A stretch of 23,408 nt of DNA, taken from a virus. The stretch's first letter is position 1. Each line of letters starts with the position of its first letter. The DNA lies in the IMG/VR virus record IMGVR_UViG_3300042882_000673, positions 1-23,408 of that record. One strand, 5' to 3'. Below are positions 7,405-23,337 of the stretch, piece by piece. The position numbers and the translations under genes were made by a program. The notes below the pieces were generated by a model. It did not search any database and was not told the DNA's origin. It saw only the letters and a list, made by a program, of their open reading frames with translations.

Positions 7405-7911
7405 ATGGCTAAAAGGTCTAATTTTGAAAGGGTAGAAAGAGATTATTACCCAACACCTTACGAAGCTGTGAAGCCACTATTGTCACACTTACCTAGTAGC
7501 TTTACATTTATAGAGCCGTGTGCGGGCGATGGAAGATTAATTAAACATATTAATGCTAACTGCATTGATGCTTACGACATAGAGCCACAGTCTAGTGCCG
7601 TTAGAGTTGGGAATGTGTTTGACTATCCTACGATAAAACCTGATTATTTTATAACTAATCCACCTTGGGATAGAAAAATATTGCATCCAGCTATTGAACA
7701 CTTATCTTTCATAGCACCAACTTGGTTATTATTTGATGCTGACTGGGCGCATACAAAGCAATCAAGTGAGTTAATTAAAAGATGTGTAAAGATTGTGTCT
7801 GTGGGTCGTGTTAAATGGATAGAAAATAGCAAGATGACAGGTAAAGATAATTGTGCATGGTATTTATTTGATAACACATTTAATGGAAAAACTGAATTTA
7901 TTGGAAGATAA
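7405..7911 (+). CDS. SAM-dependent DNA adenine methyltransferase-like protein
   Basis: A 168-residue class I methyltransferase. DYYPTPYEAV (13-22) and FIEPCAGDGRL (35-45) give the start and SAM-binding motif I, Asp58 in YDIE is the acidic residue of motif II, and NPPW (85-88) is catalytic motif IV, typical of N6-adenine or N4-cytosine enzymes. Order I then IV is the gamma-like or alpha-like arrangement. It is short and has no visible target recognition domain, so it may recognise a short site or lack specificity. CAGGAATATATC precedes the ATG. It may protect phage DNA from restriction. The fold is clear; the substrate (DNA rather than another molecule) is inferred from NPPW and context. Confidence 0.85.
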   Translation: MAKRSNFERVERDYYPTPYEAVKPLLSHLPSSFTFIEPCAGDGRLIKHINANCIDAYDIEPQSSAVRVGNVFDYPTIKPDYFITNPPWDRKILHPAIEHLSFIAPTWLLFDADWAHTKQSSELIKRCVKIVSVGRVKWIENSKMTGKDNCAWYLFDNTFNGKTEFIGR

Positions 7912-9960: not shown

Positions 9961-10263
9961 ATGACTGACGATGACATAAAATCGCTAATCAAACGACGTC
10001 GGTCTCAAATGCTAGTGCACTCTTACTTGTATTATGAAGCCGACGATCCTATTATATCCGATGATTTGTGGCAACAATGGGCAAATGAATTAGAAAAACT
10101 TCAAAAAGACAATCCCAAATGTTGTAAGATAAAATACTACGATAAAGAATTTGAAGATTGGGATGGTACCACGGGTAATCATTTACCAAGACATATAGTC
10201 GTAGAAGGTCTTGCTTTACAAGTTAAAAGAGCTTATGATAACGTTAAACCTAAAAAACCATGA
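9961..10263 (+). CDS. LigA-related small phage protein (100 aa)
   Basis: The segment VHSYLYYEADDPIISDDLWQ followed by QWANELEKLQKDNP resembles the N-terminal Ia domain of NAD-dependent DNA ligase (tyrosine pair, then D-x-P-x-I-S-D). Small phage proteins with only this segment are known as LigA-related; the adenylation domain with its catalytic lysine is missing, so ligase activity is not expected. It starts 3 bp after the previous gene and shares its transcript. It could bind a nicotinamide nucleotide, as domain Ia does; this is inference. Confidence 0.7.
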   Translation: MTDDDIKSLIKRRRSQMLVHSYLYYEADDPIISDDLWQQWANELEKLQKDNPKCCKIKYYDKEFEDWDGTTGNHLPRHIVVEGLALQVKRAYDNVKPKKP

Positions 10264-10371: not shown

Positions 10372-10707
10372 ATGATTATTCATCCTTATATACCTAAACG
10401 TAAATCTAAAAAACCTAACGCTAAACAAAGAGAGCTTAGGGCATCCTGGGAAGAGATTCTAAAAAAATATGATGTTAAGCCGAGCAACAAAAAAATTTCT
10501 AGCAGACCTAGTGTTTCTAGGCCTATTCGTGCTGGTTCTAGCACTAGTCATATTCCTAGCTTGGATAGTGGCATCGGGATGACGCCTAAAAAAACTTCTG
10601 AATATACTGGTGATGCTATGATTGGTATTTCAGTATTACATAAATCAAACGGTATACCTGTATTTCGCCAAGAAGATATACTCGATATTGGCAAGATGAG
10701 GAGATAA
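10372..10707 (+). CDS. Conserved phage protein, unknown function (111 aa)
   Basis: MIIHPYIPKRKSKKPNAKQR, then HIPSLDSGIGMTPKKTSEYT, GDAMIGISVLHKSN and a final DIGKMRR define a well spread phage family, basic and probably partly disordered, with no known function. The ATG at 10372 gives the family start; a further upstream in-frame ATG (10306) would add 22 residues that overlap the membrane peptide and match nothing. It directly precedes the methyltransferase. Confidence 0.82.
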   Translation: MIIHPYIPKRKSKKPNAKQRELRASWEEILKKYDVKPSNKKISSRPSVSRPIRAGSSTSHIPSLDSGIGMTPKKTSEYTGDAMIGISVLHKSNGIPVFRQEDILDIGKMRR

Positions 10708-10713
10708 GAACAT

Positions 10714-11478
10714 ATGGTTGATTTAAGACTTGGTGATTGTTTAGAAGTAATGAAGACTATGGATAGCAATAGCATAGATTTAACTGTTACCAGTCCACCC
10801 TACGATAATCTACGCACATACAATGGGTTTAACTTTGACTTTGAAGGCATAGCACAAGAGTTATATCGTGTTACAAAAGATGGTGGTGTAGTCGTGTGGA
10901 TTGTCGGTGATGCTACCGTCAAGGGTAGTGAAACTTTATCATCGTTCAAACAAGCGATACATTTCAATGAAATTGGCTTTAATGTGCATGACACAATGAT
11001 TTGGGAAAAACCTAATTTTTCTAATCCATCAACAAATAGATACCATCAAATTTTTGAATATATGTTTATCTTTTCAAAGGGTAAACCAAAAACATTTAAT
11101 CCTATACTAGATGTAAAAAATAAACATGTTACTGGTTGTGTTGGAAAAAATACTGGAAGACTCCCTGATGGTAGAATGGTTGATAGAAAAAAGAATTTAG
11201 GTAGAGAATTTGGGATGCGAAGAAATATTTGGAGAAATAACACAGTTGGTCAAGACTTCATGTGTAAAAAACCTCCTCATCCTGCCATGTTTCCAGAAAA
11301 GTTAGTGCACGACCATATCGTTTCTTGGTCAAATGAAGGTGATACTGTGCTAGACTGTTTTCTTGGTAGTGGCACAACGGGTAGAATGTCCAAGAAATTA
11401 AATAGAAACTTCATTGGCATAGAAATTAGCCAAGAGTATCTAAACATAGCAAAAGAAAGAATTGAATCTTTTATATGA
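10714..11478 (+). CDS. Site-specific DNA methyltransferase, beta class (N6-adenine or N4-cytosine)
   Basis: A 254-residue enzyme with catalytic motif IV TSPPY at 26-30, then HPAMFPEKL (189-197) and the SAM-binding motif LDCFLGSGTTG (213-223), ending in FIGIEIS. Catalytic motif first and SAM motif last is the beta-class order. The variable middle (about 120-185), with KNTGRLPDGRMVDRKK, is probably the target recognition region. It should methylate an amino group of A or C in a specific site and so block host restriction. No restriction endonuclease lies nearby, so it acts as an orphan. It overlaps the Mom-like gene by 4 bp (ATGA), so the two proteins are made together. Confidence 0.93.
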   Translation: MVDLRLGDCLEVMKTMDSNSIDLTVTSPPYDNLRTYNGFNFDFEGIAQELYRVTKDGGVVVWIVGDATVKGSETLSSFKQAIHFNEIGFNVHDTMIWEKPNFSNPSTNRYHQIFEYMFIFSKGKPKTFNPILDVKNKHVTGCVGKNTGRLPDGRMVDRKKNLGREFGMRRNIWRNNTVGQDFMCKKPPHPAMFPEKLVHDHIVSWSNEGDTVLDCFLGSGTTGRMSKKLNRNFIGIEISQEYLNIAKERIESFI

Positions 11479-12056
11479 AAAAAGCATTTAGCGTTGTAAA
11501 AATTGAAAGTAAATTGTCGTATCCATTTTTATTGGATATACATTACGCAAAAAGAATTCCAAGTATTAGCTACGCATACGGCATGTATGATGACGATGAG
11601 CTAATCGGAGTAATAACATTTGGTTCACCAGCAAGTCCATTTTTATGTAGAGGTCTTTTGGGTGAAGAACATAAAGAAAAAGTGATAGAGTTGAATAGAC
11701 TATGTTTAAAATACAATAGAAAAAATGAAGCTAGTTATCTTATTGCAAACGCAATTAAACTACTACCATCACCTAAAGCTATTGTTTCTTACGCAGATAC
11801 AAAACAAAATCATTTGGGCGTAATATACCAAGCAGCTAATTTTATTTTTACTGGCACGACTAAATTGAGAACTGATATGGCATCTCAAGACGGTAAACAT
11901 AGCAGACACAGTTTAGGTGACCCAACAAAAAGAGTTGTTAGAAGTGCAAAACATAGATACGTATTTTTTCACGGGAATAAATATAGAAAAAAAGAGATGT
12001 TGTCGTGTCTAAAATATCCAATTTTGGATTATCCTAAAATACAAAAACAGGAGTGA
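11475..12056 (+). CDS. Mom-like DNA adenine modification protein (GNAT-related)
   Basis: A 193-residue protein. HYAKR (23-27), ELIGVITFGSPAS (42-54), ELNRLCL (72-78), ASYLIANAIKLLP (86-98), IVSYADTKQNHLG (103-115) and VIYQAANFIFTG (116-127) follow the pattern of the Mom family of phage Mu. Mu Mom, a GNAT-fold protein, adds a carbamoylmethyl-type group to N6 of adenine in phage DNA and makes it resistant to many restriction enzymes. Here no Com-type translational activator is seen; instead the start overlaps the methyltransferase stop. The family likeness is strong at the motif level. Whether it makes the same modification is inferred. Confidence 0.82.
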   Translation: MKKAFSVVKIESKLSYPFLLDIHYAKRIPSISYAYGMYDDDELIGVITFGSPASPFLCRGLLGEEHKEKVIELNRLCLKYNRKNEASYLIANAIKLLPSPKAIVSYADTKQNHLGVIYQAANFIFTGTTKLRTDMASQDGKHSRHSLGDPTKRVVRSAKHRYVFFHGNKYRKKEMLSCLKYPILDYPKIQKQE

Positions 12057-12058
12057 TT

Positions 12059-12208
12059 ATGGAAATGCTAATAATATTTTTATGTTTATGTAATATAGTT
12101 ACGGTGTGTGTGGTTATATACCTACTAGCAAAAGATACCGAAAGCTCAAGTGGATGCACGGGTAACTGTAACCAAGGTCGTCGCTGTGATTGTAAGGATA
12201 TAAAATGA
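12059..12208 (+). CDS. Membrane-anchored Cys-rich small protein (49 aa)
   Basis: Residues 3-24 are a hydrophobic span (MLIIFLCLCNIVTVCVVIYLLA). The tail SSSGCTGNCNQGRRCDCKD carries four cysteines as C-x3-C-x5-C-x-C. The CNQGR-x-C-x-C motif recurs at the ends of small membrane proteins in unrelated phages, without known function; it may hold a metal or form disulphides. CAGGAGTG precedes the ATG, and its TGA overlaps the next ATG by 4 bp. Confidence 0.72.
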   Translation: MEMLIIFLCLCNIVTVCVVIYLLAKDTESSSGCTGNCNQGRRCDCKDIK

Positions 12209-14474: not shown

Positions 14475-15515
14475 ATGAAAATATTAATGCCGTATATTAA
14501 TGTTTCTGGCGAGAGCATAGAATCCGATATAATTTCTGGTGGAACAGAGTTATTTTCTAAGTTAGTATACGAAAACTTTGATGTTGAAGTTGTCAATATA
14601 TCTTGGAACACCACGAGAGACGACAATAAAAAATATGTTGAACTACTCCATAGCGTTGCTAAAGAGAAAAAAGTTGATTTGATTTTAAGTAATAATATCA
14701 AATCTGTTTGTCTGCGCTCACTCAAAAATTTTGGTATACCTATAATGCATATTACACACACGAACTATGGTAATATAAATTCAAATGATATTCTCAATGA
14801 AATGACTGATTTGGGACACTCTCTGTATGCTGTTTCCAATTCAAACATGGATTTTCTAAATAAAAAATCAAAAAGGTTAAATTTACCAAACCTAAGTTAT
14901 TCTGGAATAGTTAGTCCTGCTTATTGCATGTATGATGTGCCTGTGAACAAAACACCACAAAATACTGTAGTAACTATAGGTAGAGCGAATAGTTATAAAA
15001 TGCCATTTTACATTATTCCAAAATTGAAAAATAGTAAATATAGCCCATTGATTATAACTAGTCAAGGTGAAGACGATGATTCTATCAAGTATTATGCTTC
15101 TAATAAACATCATCCACACATTTTAAATGTCAATCACAATGATGTTATAGAACACCTTAGAAACTCAGTTGCATCCGTTATTACTTGTCCAGTAGAAACT
15201 TTCGGTATAACTGCACTTGAATCACTATCTGTTGGCACACCTATATTAATACACACTAACAAATCGGGTAAACATGCAAGTGCTGAGATAGTCGATAATC
15301 CAAACTATTATGTTTGTTTTAGTGGTTCTGATACTATTGAGGATAAGATAGACCTGTTATCCAAAATCGATAGAATGGAAATCAAACAGAGAACCCAAGA
15401 ATTACATTCAAAAGCTAACTGGATAAAAACTATGTCAAATGCTTTTGATAAAACTATAGAAATCTATAATAAAAAACATTCTTCAGATTCTAACCTTTCT
15501 CAGTTTTTTATGTGA
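14475..15515 (+). CDS. GT-B glycosyltransferase (family 4-like)
   Basis: A 346-residue protein. The N-terminal domain has SGGTELFSKLVY (21-32), like the GG-x-E loop of GT4 enzymes. The C-terminal domain starts VVTIGRANSYK (165-175) and holds CPVETFGITALESLSVGTPI (238-257), the donor-binding E-x7-E motif. It should transfer a sugar from a nucleotide donor. Two bases after its stop sits the phosphomannomutase, which suggests a mannose-derived donor. The IGR-x2-SYK segment is faintly like WIGRTTTWKG of the T4 alpha-glucosyltransferase that decorates DNA, so DNA is one possible acceptor; surface glycan or virion protein are others. No strong ribosome binding site is visible. Confidence 0.85.
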   Translation: MKILMPYINVSGESIESDIISGGTELFSKLVYENFDVEVVNISWNTTRDDNKKYVELLHSVAKEKKVDLILSNNIKSVCLRSLKNFGIPIMHITHTNYGNINSNDILNEMTDLGHSLYAVSNSNMDFLNKKSKRLNLPNLSYSGIVSPAYCMYDVPVNKTPQNTVVTIGRANSYKMPFYIIPKLKNSKYSPLIITSQGEDDDSIKYYASNKHHPHILNVNHNDVIEHLRNSVASVITCPVETFGITALESLSVGTPILIHTNKSGKHASAEIVDNPNYYVCFSGSDTIEDKIDLLSKIDRMEIKQRTQELHSKANWIKTMSNAFDKTIEIYNKKHSSDSNLSQFFM

Positions 15516-15516
15516 T

Positions 15517-16239
15517 ATGCAGAATCCTATTTTTTTATTTGATGTCGACGGAACATTAACGCCAAGTAGAGGCAAAATAGACAAAAGTTTTGGGCTTTGG
15601 TTAAAACAGTTTATGTTGTTAAATAAAGTTGCTTTTGTTACGGGAAGTGATATAGATAAAACTATTGAGCAGCTTGGCACAGAACTAATGTCTTTAGCGA
15701 TATATTCATTTAACTGCTCTAGCAATACCATTTATGTAAAAAATAATTTGATTTATCAATCTGACTGGAAGTGTCCTGAAGAAATAATAGATTATTTACT
15801 ATGTAAATTAAACGAAAGTGTGTATAATTATAAGTATGGTAAACATATAGAACCTAGAATAGGTATGATAAATTTCTCTATTGTAGGTAGAAACGCTTCG
15901 ATTGAAGAGAGGAAAAAGTATTACGAGTGGGATAAAATTCACGGTGAGAGACTATCTTTAGCGAAAGATATAAATTCTAAGTGGAATAATATTCAAGCTG
16001 TTGTTGGTGGTGAAACTGGTGTAGATATATTCGAAAAAGGACATGACAAAGCCAGAATACTCAAACACTTTAAAGAACATCAGAAGTTTGTATTTTTCGG
16101 TGATAGTATGAACGAGTCTGGAAATGATTACTCACTTGCCCAAGAAATACTAATGAATAACCGGGGTATTTGCCATACAGTAAGTAACTGGAATGAAACT
16201 TGGAATATATTGAGAGAAAAATATGATAGCAAAAATTGA
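15517..16239 (+). CDS. Phosphomannomutase, eukaryotic type (HAD family)
   Basis: A 240-residue HAD-superfamily protein. DVDGTLTPS (9-17) carries the nucleophile aspartate and its partner. EPRIGMINFSIVGRNASIEER (112-132) is the substrate-binding signature of the PMM1/PMM2-type enzymes, and GVDIFEKGHDK (168-178) and FFGDSMNESGNDY (193-205) complete the cap and metal-binding parts. It converts mannose-6-phosphate to mannose-1-phosphate, the step before GDP-mannose. This is the eukaryotic-like family rather than the usual bacterial ManB. It follows the GT-B enzyme by one base and overlaps the next gene by 17 bp. Together with the cupin at 2-394 it supplies two steps of GDP-mannose synthesis. Confidence 0.9.
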   Translation: MQNPIFLFDVDGTLTPSRGKIDKSFGLWLKQFMLLNKVAFVTGSDIDKTIEQLGTELMSLAIYSFNCSSNTIYVKNNLIYQSDWKCPEEIIDYLLCKLNESVYNYKYGKHIEPRIGMINFSIVGRNASIEERKKYYEWDKIHGERLSLAKDINSKWNNIQAVVGGETGVDIFEKGHDKARILKHFKEHQKFVFFGDSMNESGNDYSLAQEILMNNRGICHTVSNWNETWNILREKYDSKN

Positions 16240-21319: not shown

Positions 21320-21817
21320 CTAGAAACCTTGAGCTGCTCTAGATTTGAATAGCGCTAGCAAATCGTCGTTGTATGGTGATGCCATACCACCAGTAGACAC
21401 TGATGTATTATTAACGTTAGTTACATTCGTACCAGTTGTCGTTGAAGCCATAGCTTGAATAAGTGCAGCAAGTGTCGCTGTAAAAGTATCTTCTTTTTCT
21501 GCTTCTGCTTGTTTGGTTAATTCTATTGTAGCTTTTGTGTTTTCAACAACAGCGTCTTTATGTTCCATCTGTAATTTAGCGAAGACGTTACTTCTATAAT
21601 TTGTAGACTCTTCAGGTTTTTCTAGTGTTCCTGTCCAACGTTTTAAAGCATCGTCTAAAGATAAGTCTCTATAGTTTTTACCTTTAGATAATAAATCTAT
21701 TTGCGCTGCTTCACCAGCCGCAAGCGAAGGAAATTGCGCTAACTTACCTTTAACATCACCAGTTCCTCTATCGGAACGGTCTCTAACAGCACCAAACCTA
21801 GCAGTTTGTTCTGAATA
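21320..21817 (-). pseudogene. C-terminal part of the virion-type gene, shifted frame
   Basis: This frame is open on the minus strand from 21817 down to the TAG at 21320. It begins YSEQTARFGAVRDRSDRGTG, runs on through KLAQFPSLAAGEAAQIDLL and LDDALKRWTGTLEKPEEST, and ends with KSRAAQGF. It reads as the direct continuation of the domain that starts NNPGNI in the gene at 21739-23337. The only good internal start is an ATG at 21568, which would give 82 residues without the domain core. It is therefore best read as the tail of a frame-disrupted gene, 165 residues long. The Asn/Thr-rich end (TTTGTNVTNVNNTSVSTGG) looks like a virion-protein linker. Confidence 0.75.
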
Positions 21818-23337
21818 TTGCCAGGATTATTCAAGTCGTATGATGCTGAACCTGGAAAGAATCCTTCTTGTTTTCTTTGTTCTCTAATTACAACTAATTG
21901 TTGTTCAGGAGTTAAATCATTAAATTTAACGTCTGAATTTAATTTTGTGGGTGTTATATTCGAACCTCCAGATATGTTTTCTACAGAAGGTTCGACTGTA
22001 GGAGAAGCGCCTCTTAAACTTCTTTTCTCTTTTTGGAGTTTAGAAATTTCTTCTCCTATAGATAATTTACGAGCCTCACTTACTGCATTTTGTTTATTAT
22101 TTAATTCTGATGTTAATATATCTATTCTTTTTTGCACTTCCATCTGTTCTTTGTTCATCGATGGACCGACACCATATGATGCGTCTAAACGATTTAATGC
22201 TATCTGTGCTTTTTTAGACCCACCAGCAATAGCTTTCTCTAATCTCTTTCTAACTTCAGCGCGTTCCATTTCGTCTAGTTTTTTGTTGATGGGATTGTAT
22301 CCCAATCTCTTATCAAAATCTTCGTCTAAAAACGATTCAGCAACACCAAGTTTTAATTTTTCTAAATTGCCTTCTTCGGCAAATTTTTGAGTTTCTTTAG
22401 ATTGTTTCTCTTCAGCTTTTGCTTGAGCTTTAAACGCAACCGCTCCAGCAACACCGACTGCGGCAAACGCTAGAACTGCAGGATGCTTTAAAAATGCCGC
22501 TAACACAGAAGATATGCCTGTCGCTGTTTCTGTTATTGCTGCTGTTAAAAGGTTTGATGCTACTTTAAATGCTAGATATGAACCACCAATGATTAAAGCA
22601 CCATCCATAAGACCATTTTTTAAATCAGTTTTCAGACTTTCCCAATACTCTGCACCAAAAATTGCTGTACCTAAACTGTTCACCATATCGTTGACTGATT
22701 TTCTAAACTCCGGGTCTGTGAAATACTTACCTATACCCACAAGAACTCCTGCAATTAAACCACCCTTCAGAAGTCCAATAAGTAAGTCTTTAAATCCTAA
22801 TCCTAAAATACCACTTAATAAATTACTGAAGAAACCACCCTTTTCTTTTACAGCATCTTTTACACCATCTCTAGTTGGAGACTTCGTTGCAATCTGAGTC
22901 TCGTACGCGGCTTCTCTTTCCTTAGCTTTCAAGAAAAATGCGTCAGCACGATTTGTTGCGCTACCCGTTGATTGCTTGGTCATATTGACAATGTTCTGTC
23001 TCATCACGTTCATGTCACGTGCCATGCCGGGTAGAACCATTGAATTCTTTGCTGATACTGCTGTACTTAATCGAATTGCATTTAATGTTTTATTATCAAA
23101 ATTTGAGGTTGTTCTATCAACAACACCAGTAGGACCTTTACCTTTAGACTTATATGCTTTACCAAAGGCAGATTCGAGCATTGCACCAAGAACACCAGTA
23201 GTTGGAACTAACCGACGCAAATCGGTTAGTTCTTTTCTACGCTCGGATGCACTAGATTTTAGAGCAGAAAAAGTGCCTTCACCAGCTTGTGTTTTCTGTC
23301 TATAAATCTCTTCAAATCTACCTCTTTTTTCAGCCAT
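21739..23337 (-). CDS. Putative virion protein with NNPGN-type C-terminal domain, frame-disrupted
   Basis: 532 residues are read from the ATG at 23337 (ribosome binding site AGGAAA). Residues 1-165 are basic and helical; 168-205 (FFSNLLSGILGLGFKDLLIG and on) and 245-305 are strongly hydrophobic and Gly/Ala-rich; 306-470 are charged and probably coiled. Near residue 500 begins SASYDLNNPGNI, the start of an NPGN domain found in phage tail-associated and wall-active proteins. After NPGN the frame no longer makes sense and ends 26 residues later; the proper continuation lies in the -1 frame (21817-21320). Ancestral length is about 672 residues. The role is probably a structural or tail-associated protein, acting at the host membrane during entry; this is inference from hydrophobic pattern and domain. 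Confidence 0.72.
   Translation of the reverse strand: MAEKRGRFEEIYRQKTQAGEGTFSALKSSASERRKELTDLRRLVPTTGVLGAMLESAFGKAYKSKGKGPTGVVDRTTSNFDNKTLNAIRLSTAVSAKNSMVLPGMARDMNVMRQNIVNMTKQSTGSATNRADAFFLKAKEREAAYETQIATKSPTRDGVKDAVKEKGGFFSNLLSGILGLGFKDLLIGLLKGGLIAGVLVGIGKYFTDPEFRKSVNDMVNSLGTAIFGAEYWESLKTDLKNGLMDGALIIGGSYLAFKVASNLLTAAITETATGISSVLAAFLKHPAVLAFAAVGVAGAVAFKAQAKAEEKQSKETQKFAEEGNLEKLKLGVAESFLDEDFDKRLGYNPINKKLDEMERAEVRKRLEKAIAGGSKKAQIALNRLDASYGVGPSMNKEQMEVQKRIDILTSELNNKQNAVSEARKLSIGEEISKLQKEKRSLRGASPTVEPSVENISGGSNITPTKLNSDVKFNDLTPEQQLVVIREQRKQEGFFPGSASYDLNNPGNIQNKLLGLVLLETVPIEELVMLKVS

Follow-up and report, generated by a model that had tools for sequence, protein, structure and literature searches.

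The 23,408-nt stretch of viral DNA analyzed here (IMG/VR record IMGVR_UViG_3300042882_000673, positions 1 to 23,408; hereafter the window) encodes a true Mom protein, and in many relatives of that protein a glycine-type tRNA gene is joined to mom. We consider it quite likely that Mom is a glycyl-tRNA:DNA transferase, that the non-decoding tRNA-Gly fused to mom in many phages has as its sole task the supply of glycine for transfer to DNA adenine, and that the Mom of the window relies on another Gly-tRNA. In the window, mom overlaps the gene of a beta-class methyltransferase, and it is fairly likely overall that the two enzymes place different anti-restriction marks, with N4-methylcytosine made by the methyltransferase and Mom acting by way of Gly-tRNA and a rearrangement. 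As an example of DNA modification in phages, the gene pair departs only modestly from what is known. The union of tRNA and mom is the new part of the finding; we could not find a glycyl-tRNA linked with Mom described in the openly licensed literature, and an earlier discovery is possible.

The methyltransferase and Mom of the window

The original prediction described a beta-class methyltransferase and a Mom-like open reading frame (ORF) overlapping by ATGA in a T4-like phage, and the sequence agreed with this description. The methyltransferase gene lies at 10714..11478 (+ strand, 254 aa) and mom at 11475..12056 (+ strand, 193 aa), and the ATGA at 11475..11478 on the + strand holds the stop codon of the first gene and the start codon of the second. 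Profile searches of the ORFs in the window identified gp59 and gp32 homologues and PhoH, which make the surroundings T4-like. A near-identity search of phage records with the window returned no match. A Shine-Dalgarno-like AGGAG (10699..10703, + strand) precedes the methyltransferase gene, and a clear Shine-Dalgarno of its own was not seen for mom in the sequence 5' of its start (AAAGAATTGAATCTTTTATATG). Because such a site is clear only for the first gene, coupled translation of the two appears plausible; of the coupling claimed earlier, the overlap stands, and the missing ribosome site is consistent with coupling without being proof of it. Such overlaps are ordinary in this phage. Of the 44 gene junctions in the window, 7 overlap by exactly 4 nt, including the junction between mom and the next ORF (12053..12208, + strand, 51 aa), and the pair may be co-translated only in the way that many genes of the same phage are. 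No Com-like zinc-finger gene precedes mom, as had been noted, and the methyltransferase fills that place. The 51-aa ORF, which overlaps mom at the 3' end of the latter, is not in a Com-like position; a single membrane stretch is predicted in it, and its tail is rich in Cys (CTGNCNQGRRCDC).

Profile search and structure prediction both placed the product of 11475-12056 inside the Mom/GNAT group, confirming it as a true Mom. It matched Pfam family PF25680 'Mom' at 9.9e-35 (120.5 bits, against a curated cut-off of 27.1) and PHROGs family phrog_1384, 'Mom-like DNA modification protein', at 1.8e-55, and phmmer matched it to PDB entry 8bv8, 'Methylcarbamoylase mom' (Mu Mom), at 1.2e-11. The AlphaFold model had a pLDDT of 89, and its best structural match was also 8bv8 (E 2.9e-12, TM 0.77). 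Residues H23, Y24, S87, D108, and Y118 aligned with Mu H58, Y59, S124, D149, and Y159 (all 5 of the residues checked were kept) and were invariant in 34 of 34 aligned sequences. The title of 8bv8 names an 'inactive mutant S124A', and Mu S124 corresponds to S87 in the window. The Mu modification is N6-carbamoylmethyladenine, a purinyl glycinamide, and the Mom of the window would be expected to add the same type of carbamoylmethyl (glycinamide) group at N6 of adenine. Mu com-mom and the window have in common the Mom family, the GNAT fold, the active-site residues, and an overlapping operon; however, the partner of mom in Mu is Com, a translational activator whose gene shares 80 nt with mom, whereas in the window it is the methyltransferase. 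Relatives of the Mom of the window were found in 286 of 50,697 phage records, and Mom was already annotated among T4-like phages in Aeromonas AS-zj.

The product of 10714-11478 is a SAM-dependent amino-methyltransferase. It matched PF01555 (2.6e-47) and phrog_67 (1.6e-65), its best PADLOC match was an orphan methyltransferase (1.5e-94), and motif IV (TSPPY, at about residues 26-30) stands ahead of motif I (DCFLGSGTTG, with FLGSG at about 216-220), which together with PF01555 identifies it as a beta-class N6_N4 enzyme. Motif IV is TSPPY also in the N4-cytosine enzyme structures 8s9m and 8s9n, whereas DPPY stands at this position in CcrM and MboIIA, which are adenine enzymes. PF01555 and a motif of the (T)SPPY type unite the window enzyme with the N4-cytosine beta-class enzymes M.PvuII, whose motif we take to be of this type, and 8s9m. 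In contrast to these, no partner endonuclease was found for the predicted window methyltransferase; a restriction endonuclease gene was not among the larger window ORFs scanned against Pfam and PHROGs. Because motif IV is TSPPY and not DPPY, the enzyme probably makes N4-methylcytosine, and the suggestion that both enzymes act on adenine is disfavored. The likeliest reading of these motifs is a division in which the methyltransferase would make m4C and Mom would carry out the N6-adenine modification, with the two enzymes putting different marks on phage DNA against host restriction. A second, small methyltransferase gene at 7405..7911 (+ strand; EPCAGDG and NPPW; phrog_799, 3.9e-35), probably N6-adenine specific, completes the three modification enzymes that had been predicted within 5 kb.

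The claim that the pair forms a distinct two-enzyme cassette did not hold. Among 79 Mom loci sampled by Mom similarity alone, a beta-methyltransferase lay within 2 kb of mom in 2, and in two further sets of loci one was near mom in 8 of 116 and 2 of 66. The pairing is sporadic and one of several combinations, and a conserved methyltransferase-mom cassette was rejected on these counts. There were also precedents: methyltransferases of differing kinds stand beside mom in the loci that we labeled L036, L003/L004, and the L084 group, and in Polaribacter phage P12002L. In L003/L004, a homologue of the window enzyme at 7405 directly overlaps the 3' end of mom. P12002L, an isolate, has a DNA methyltransferase gene directly before mom, as the window does, but its enzyme is of the D12 class and is separated from mom by a gap of 102 nt, compared to a beta-class enzyme and an ATGA overlap in the window. 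Since pairing is rare, yet varied methyltransferases recur beside mom, the arrangement in the window is one of several sporadic combinations. It is fairly likely that its methyltransferase and Mom are unrelated neighbors without a functional cassette, which is compatible with the best explanation of each enzyme. The rarity of the pairing (2/79, 8/116, and 2/66) and the commonness of 4-nt overlaps in the window agree with this, although the recurrence of several methyltransferase types beside mom in separate lineages (L036, L003, the L084 group, and P12002L) does not. A beta-methyltransferase, an m5C-type methyltransferase, and two Mom-like proteins are encoded at L084:714-4379, making four modification genes in a row, and two Mom-like proteins were also seen in L105, L178, L179, and L182.

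A tRNA-Gly-like gene joined to mom in relatives

In the contigs of several relatives, ARAGORN and Rfam identified a tRNA that immediately precedes mom and whose anticodon loop is abnormal. L123, whose Mom is 62% identical and belongs to the window's own subfamily, carries a mom-linked tRNA at L123:3885-3960, and L155 has a version with a canonical loop about 340 nt upstream of mom. Further examples were found at L020:5840-5915 and L093:7708-7783, and mom-joined tRNA-Gly-like genes are present in L200-L404. Two scans were performed blind to Mom. The first searched 2.9 million viral contigs for a pattern describing only the tRNA and yielded at least 118 new loci; among the matches listed, a same-strand Mom ORF lay no more than 1 kb away in 115 and no more than 100 nt away in 114. 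For random positions in these loci, Mom is this close (100 nt) in 14% of cases. The second scan, with the T-arm and 3' end fixed and the anticodon left free, yielded 74 more loci, of which 66 had Mom within 100 nt. In 6 of the other 8 loci, no more than about 360 nt separated the tRNA from the end of the contig at which mom would be cut off; a partial Mom was present in L341 and L395. Both scans together gave at least 192 loci, and among those listed 181 had a same-strand Mom within 1 kb and 180 within 100 nt, counts that come from a pattern derived from mom-adjacent copies and show the company of this tRNA family, not of every phage tRNA-Gly. Many contigs were near-duplicates, and there were 171 distinct tRNA sequences in all, 2-3 of these being chance matches.

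Genuine exceptions without a linked Mom were L387 and L402, the latter with an m5C methyltransferase upstream. Further exceptions were L307, where a Mom-like ORF is truncated, and Verrucomicrobia phage P8625, with a methyltransferase upstream and Mom not found. In P8625 (L418:1995-2070) and L402 (about 792-860), the same kind of tRNA thus stands beside a DNA methyltransferase with no Mom found; Mom may have been lost there, or the tRNA may have another use. Three isolates also carry a tRNA near mom: Salinibacter phage B2_17 has an annotated tRNA-Gly 32 nt after mom, Arthrobacter phage Sonny has an unannotated tRNA with a normal T-arm overlapping the end of mom, and Microbacterium phage MenE has the tRNA on the other strand. 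Bacterial and archaeal genomes (257 Gb) gave only 13 matches to the pattern, 8 of them next to Mom and 3 by chance. With the pattern almost missing from these genomes, the possibility that the tRNA is a host att remnant was rejected.

GlyRS recognizes tRNA-Gly by features such as those seen in this tRNA. Among the distinct sequences, G1:C72 with C2:G71 occurred in 168 of 171, U73 in 164 of 171, and an encoded CCA in 139 of 171. C35 and C36 were present in nearly all scan-2 tRNAs even though the anticodon had been left free, and position 33 was often not U. The anticodon loop had 6 nt in 58 of 170 distinct sequences. The T-stem contains a conserved extra A (GGCGG...CCGACC), bulged at the region of contact with EF-Tu, and binding of EF-Tu would be reduced. 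Judged by sequence, the mom-linked tRNA appears to have glycine identity features without those needed for decoding.

The acceptor stem was 98.7% paired, and its covariation amounted to 103 double-change cells compared to 28 ± 6 in shuffled data. The 5' end of mom carried the tRNA in 69 cases, and the loops there were mostly of 6 nt; the 88 tRNAs at the 3' end mostly had loops of 7 nt. The tRNA overlapped the mom ORF in 98 of 115 loci from scan 1 and 54 of 66 from scan 2. At the 3' site, all three reading frames run through the tRNA (35, 17, and 11 cases), and because the frame varies, what selection preserves there is the RNA, not a peptide. The frame was fixed at the 5' site in 61 of 62; there, a start codon after the tRNA was missing in 37 of 62, so the tRNA and mom truly overlap. 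Frame variation and stem covariation led us to reject the tRNA-like stretch as a peptide artefact. In the same phages, a second tRNA-like stretch (GAAATGG ... GTTGGTTCGATTCCAAC CATTTC) was seen directly before a large DPPY methyltransferase gene (L093:5870-5945, L099:1770-1850, and L086:2370-2450).

The linkage of tRNA and mom is not universal, since the tRNA was missing from the window (by ARAGORN, pattern, and covariance model), from 77 of 79 Mom relatives in the sample of the window's subfamily, from Mu, and from most named Mom phages. Mu and the window are alike in this respect. Of 39 further whole contigs with Mom, 37 had no match to the tRNA model anywhere. Along starred branches of the Mom tree, at least 14 changes of the tRNA state were counted, which indicates that the association was gained or lost repeatedly.

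Glycyl-tRNA as the proposed donor for Mom

GNAT-fold enzymes that use aminoacyl-tRNA exist, and the fold of FemXAB is related. In the mechanism that we propose, Mom, with a GNAT fold like that of FemXAB, would take glycine from glycyl-tRNA and acylate adenine at N6 to give N6-CO-CH2-NH2, an isomer of the known Mu product. The free amine would then attack C6 through a five-membered ring, in a Smiles-type shift, to give N6-CH2-CO-NH2. Many relatives would supply their own non-decoding Gly-tRNA, presumably charged with glycine, from a gene fused to mom, and the phage of the window, like most of its clade, would use a Gly-tRNA of the host or one encoded outside the fragment. Because the window is without such a tRNA, we infer a glycyl-tRNA donor for its Mom from homology and the invariant active-site residues. 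FemXAB enzymes use a non-proteinogenic Gly-tRNA that is shielded from DTD by U73 (PMC6097841), and such a transferase with its U73 Gly-tRNA can be likened to Mom and the tRNA of its relatives. The acceptor of FemXAB is a peptidoglycan precursor, whereas that of Mom would be DNA adenine, and in the tRNA-linked Mom relatives, unlike FemXAB, enzyme and tRNA are encoded by physically joined genes. The tRNA in the relatives bears on an old puzzle, namely the source and chemistry of the glycinamide-like group that Mom places on adenine, and the union of mom with a glycine tRNA of its own opens the identity of the donor to direct test. If the proposal is true, DNA joins the short list of molecules receiving amino acids from tRNA, and glycylation followed by rearrangement accounts for the carbamoylmethyl group.

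Alternatively, the tRNA-like element could be a cis-acting operator or processing site in the mom mRNA that mimics Gly-tRNA, a counterpart of control by Com, and Mom may regulate itself by binding it. Such a site would fit an element that mostly overlaps the mom ORF (98/115 and 54/66) and has a fixed frame at the 5' side (61/62). However, the element occurs at either end of mom, is separate from it in B2_17 (32 nt) and L155 (about 340 nt upstream), and has the full glycine identity set, including C35, C36, and the encoded CCA, for which an operator would have no use. We consider an operator unlikely.

An earlier proposal for Mu Mom, in which a two-carbon unit is moved from acetyl-CoA by iron-dependent radical chemistry and the linked tRNA would have another role, seems quite unlikely. 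Karambelkar et al. reportedly found in 2020 that Mu Mom binds acetyl-CoA and iron, which counts against a glycyl-tRNA donor. The GNAT fold matches many acetyl-CoA enzymes, and the four residues H23, Y24, D108, and Y118, at positions that we take to be Fe-binding in Mom, are invariant. The scheme nevertheless leaves unexplained why a glycine tRNA, and no other, has become fixed next to mom in well over 100 loci, and also the glycinamide structure of the Mu product. It is very improbable that the tRNA translates glycine codons and accompanies mom by coincidence or because it marks an integration site. Its identity elements are those of a glycine tRNA, and phages often carry tRNAs, but the 6-nt anticodon loops, non-U33, the T-stem bulge at the EF-Tu contact region, the near-absolute linkage to one gene, and the near absence from host genomes, which speaks against an att remnant, all oppose it.

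Other genes of the window

On the minus strand, a 532-aa ORF (21739-23337) was by far the longest and matched no family in Pfam or PHROGs. A stand-alone 100-aa NAD+-binding Ia domain of DNA ligase is encoded at 9961-10263 (PF22745, 3.7e-29; phrog_6466), and no ligase body was seen beside it. The segments 15517-16239, 391-2021, and 14475-15515 hold genes for a phosphomannomutase (eukaryotic-type; PF03332, 2e-30), a nucleotide-sugar epimerase, and two glycosyltransferases, which appear to form a small sugar pathway in the phage.
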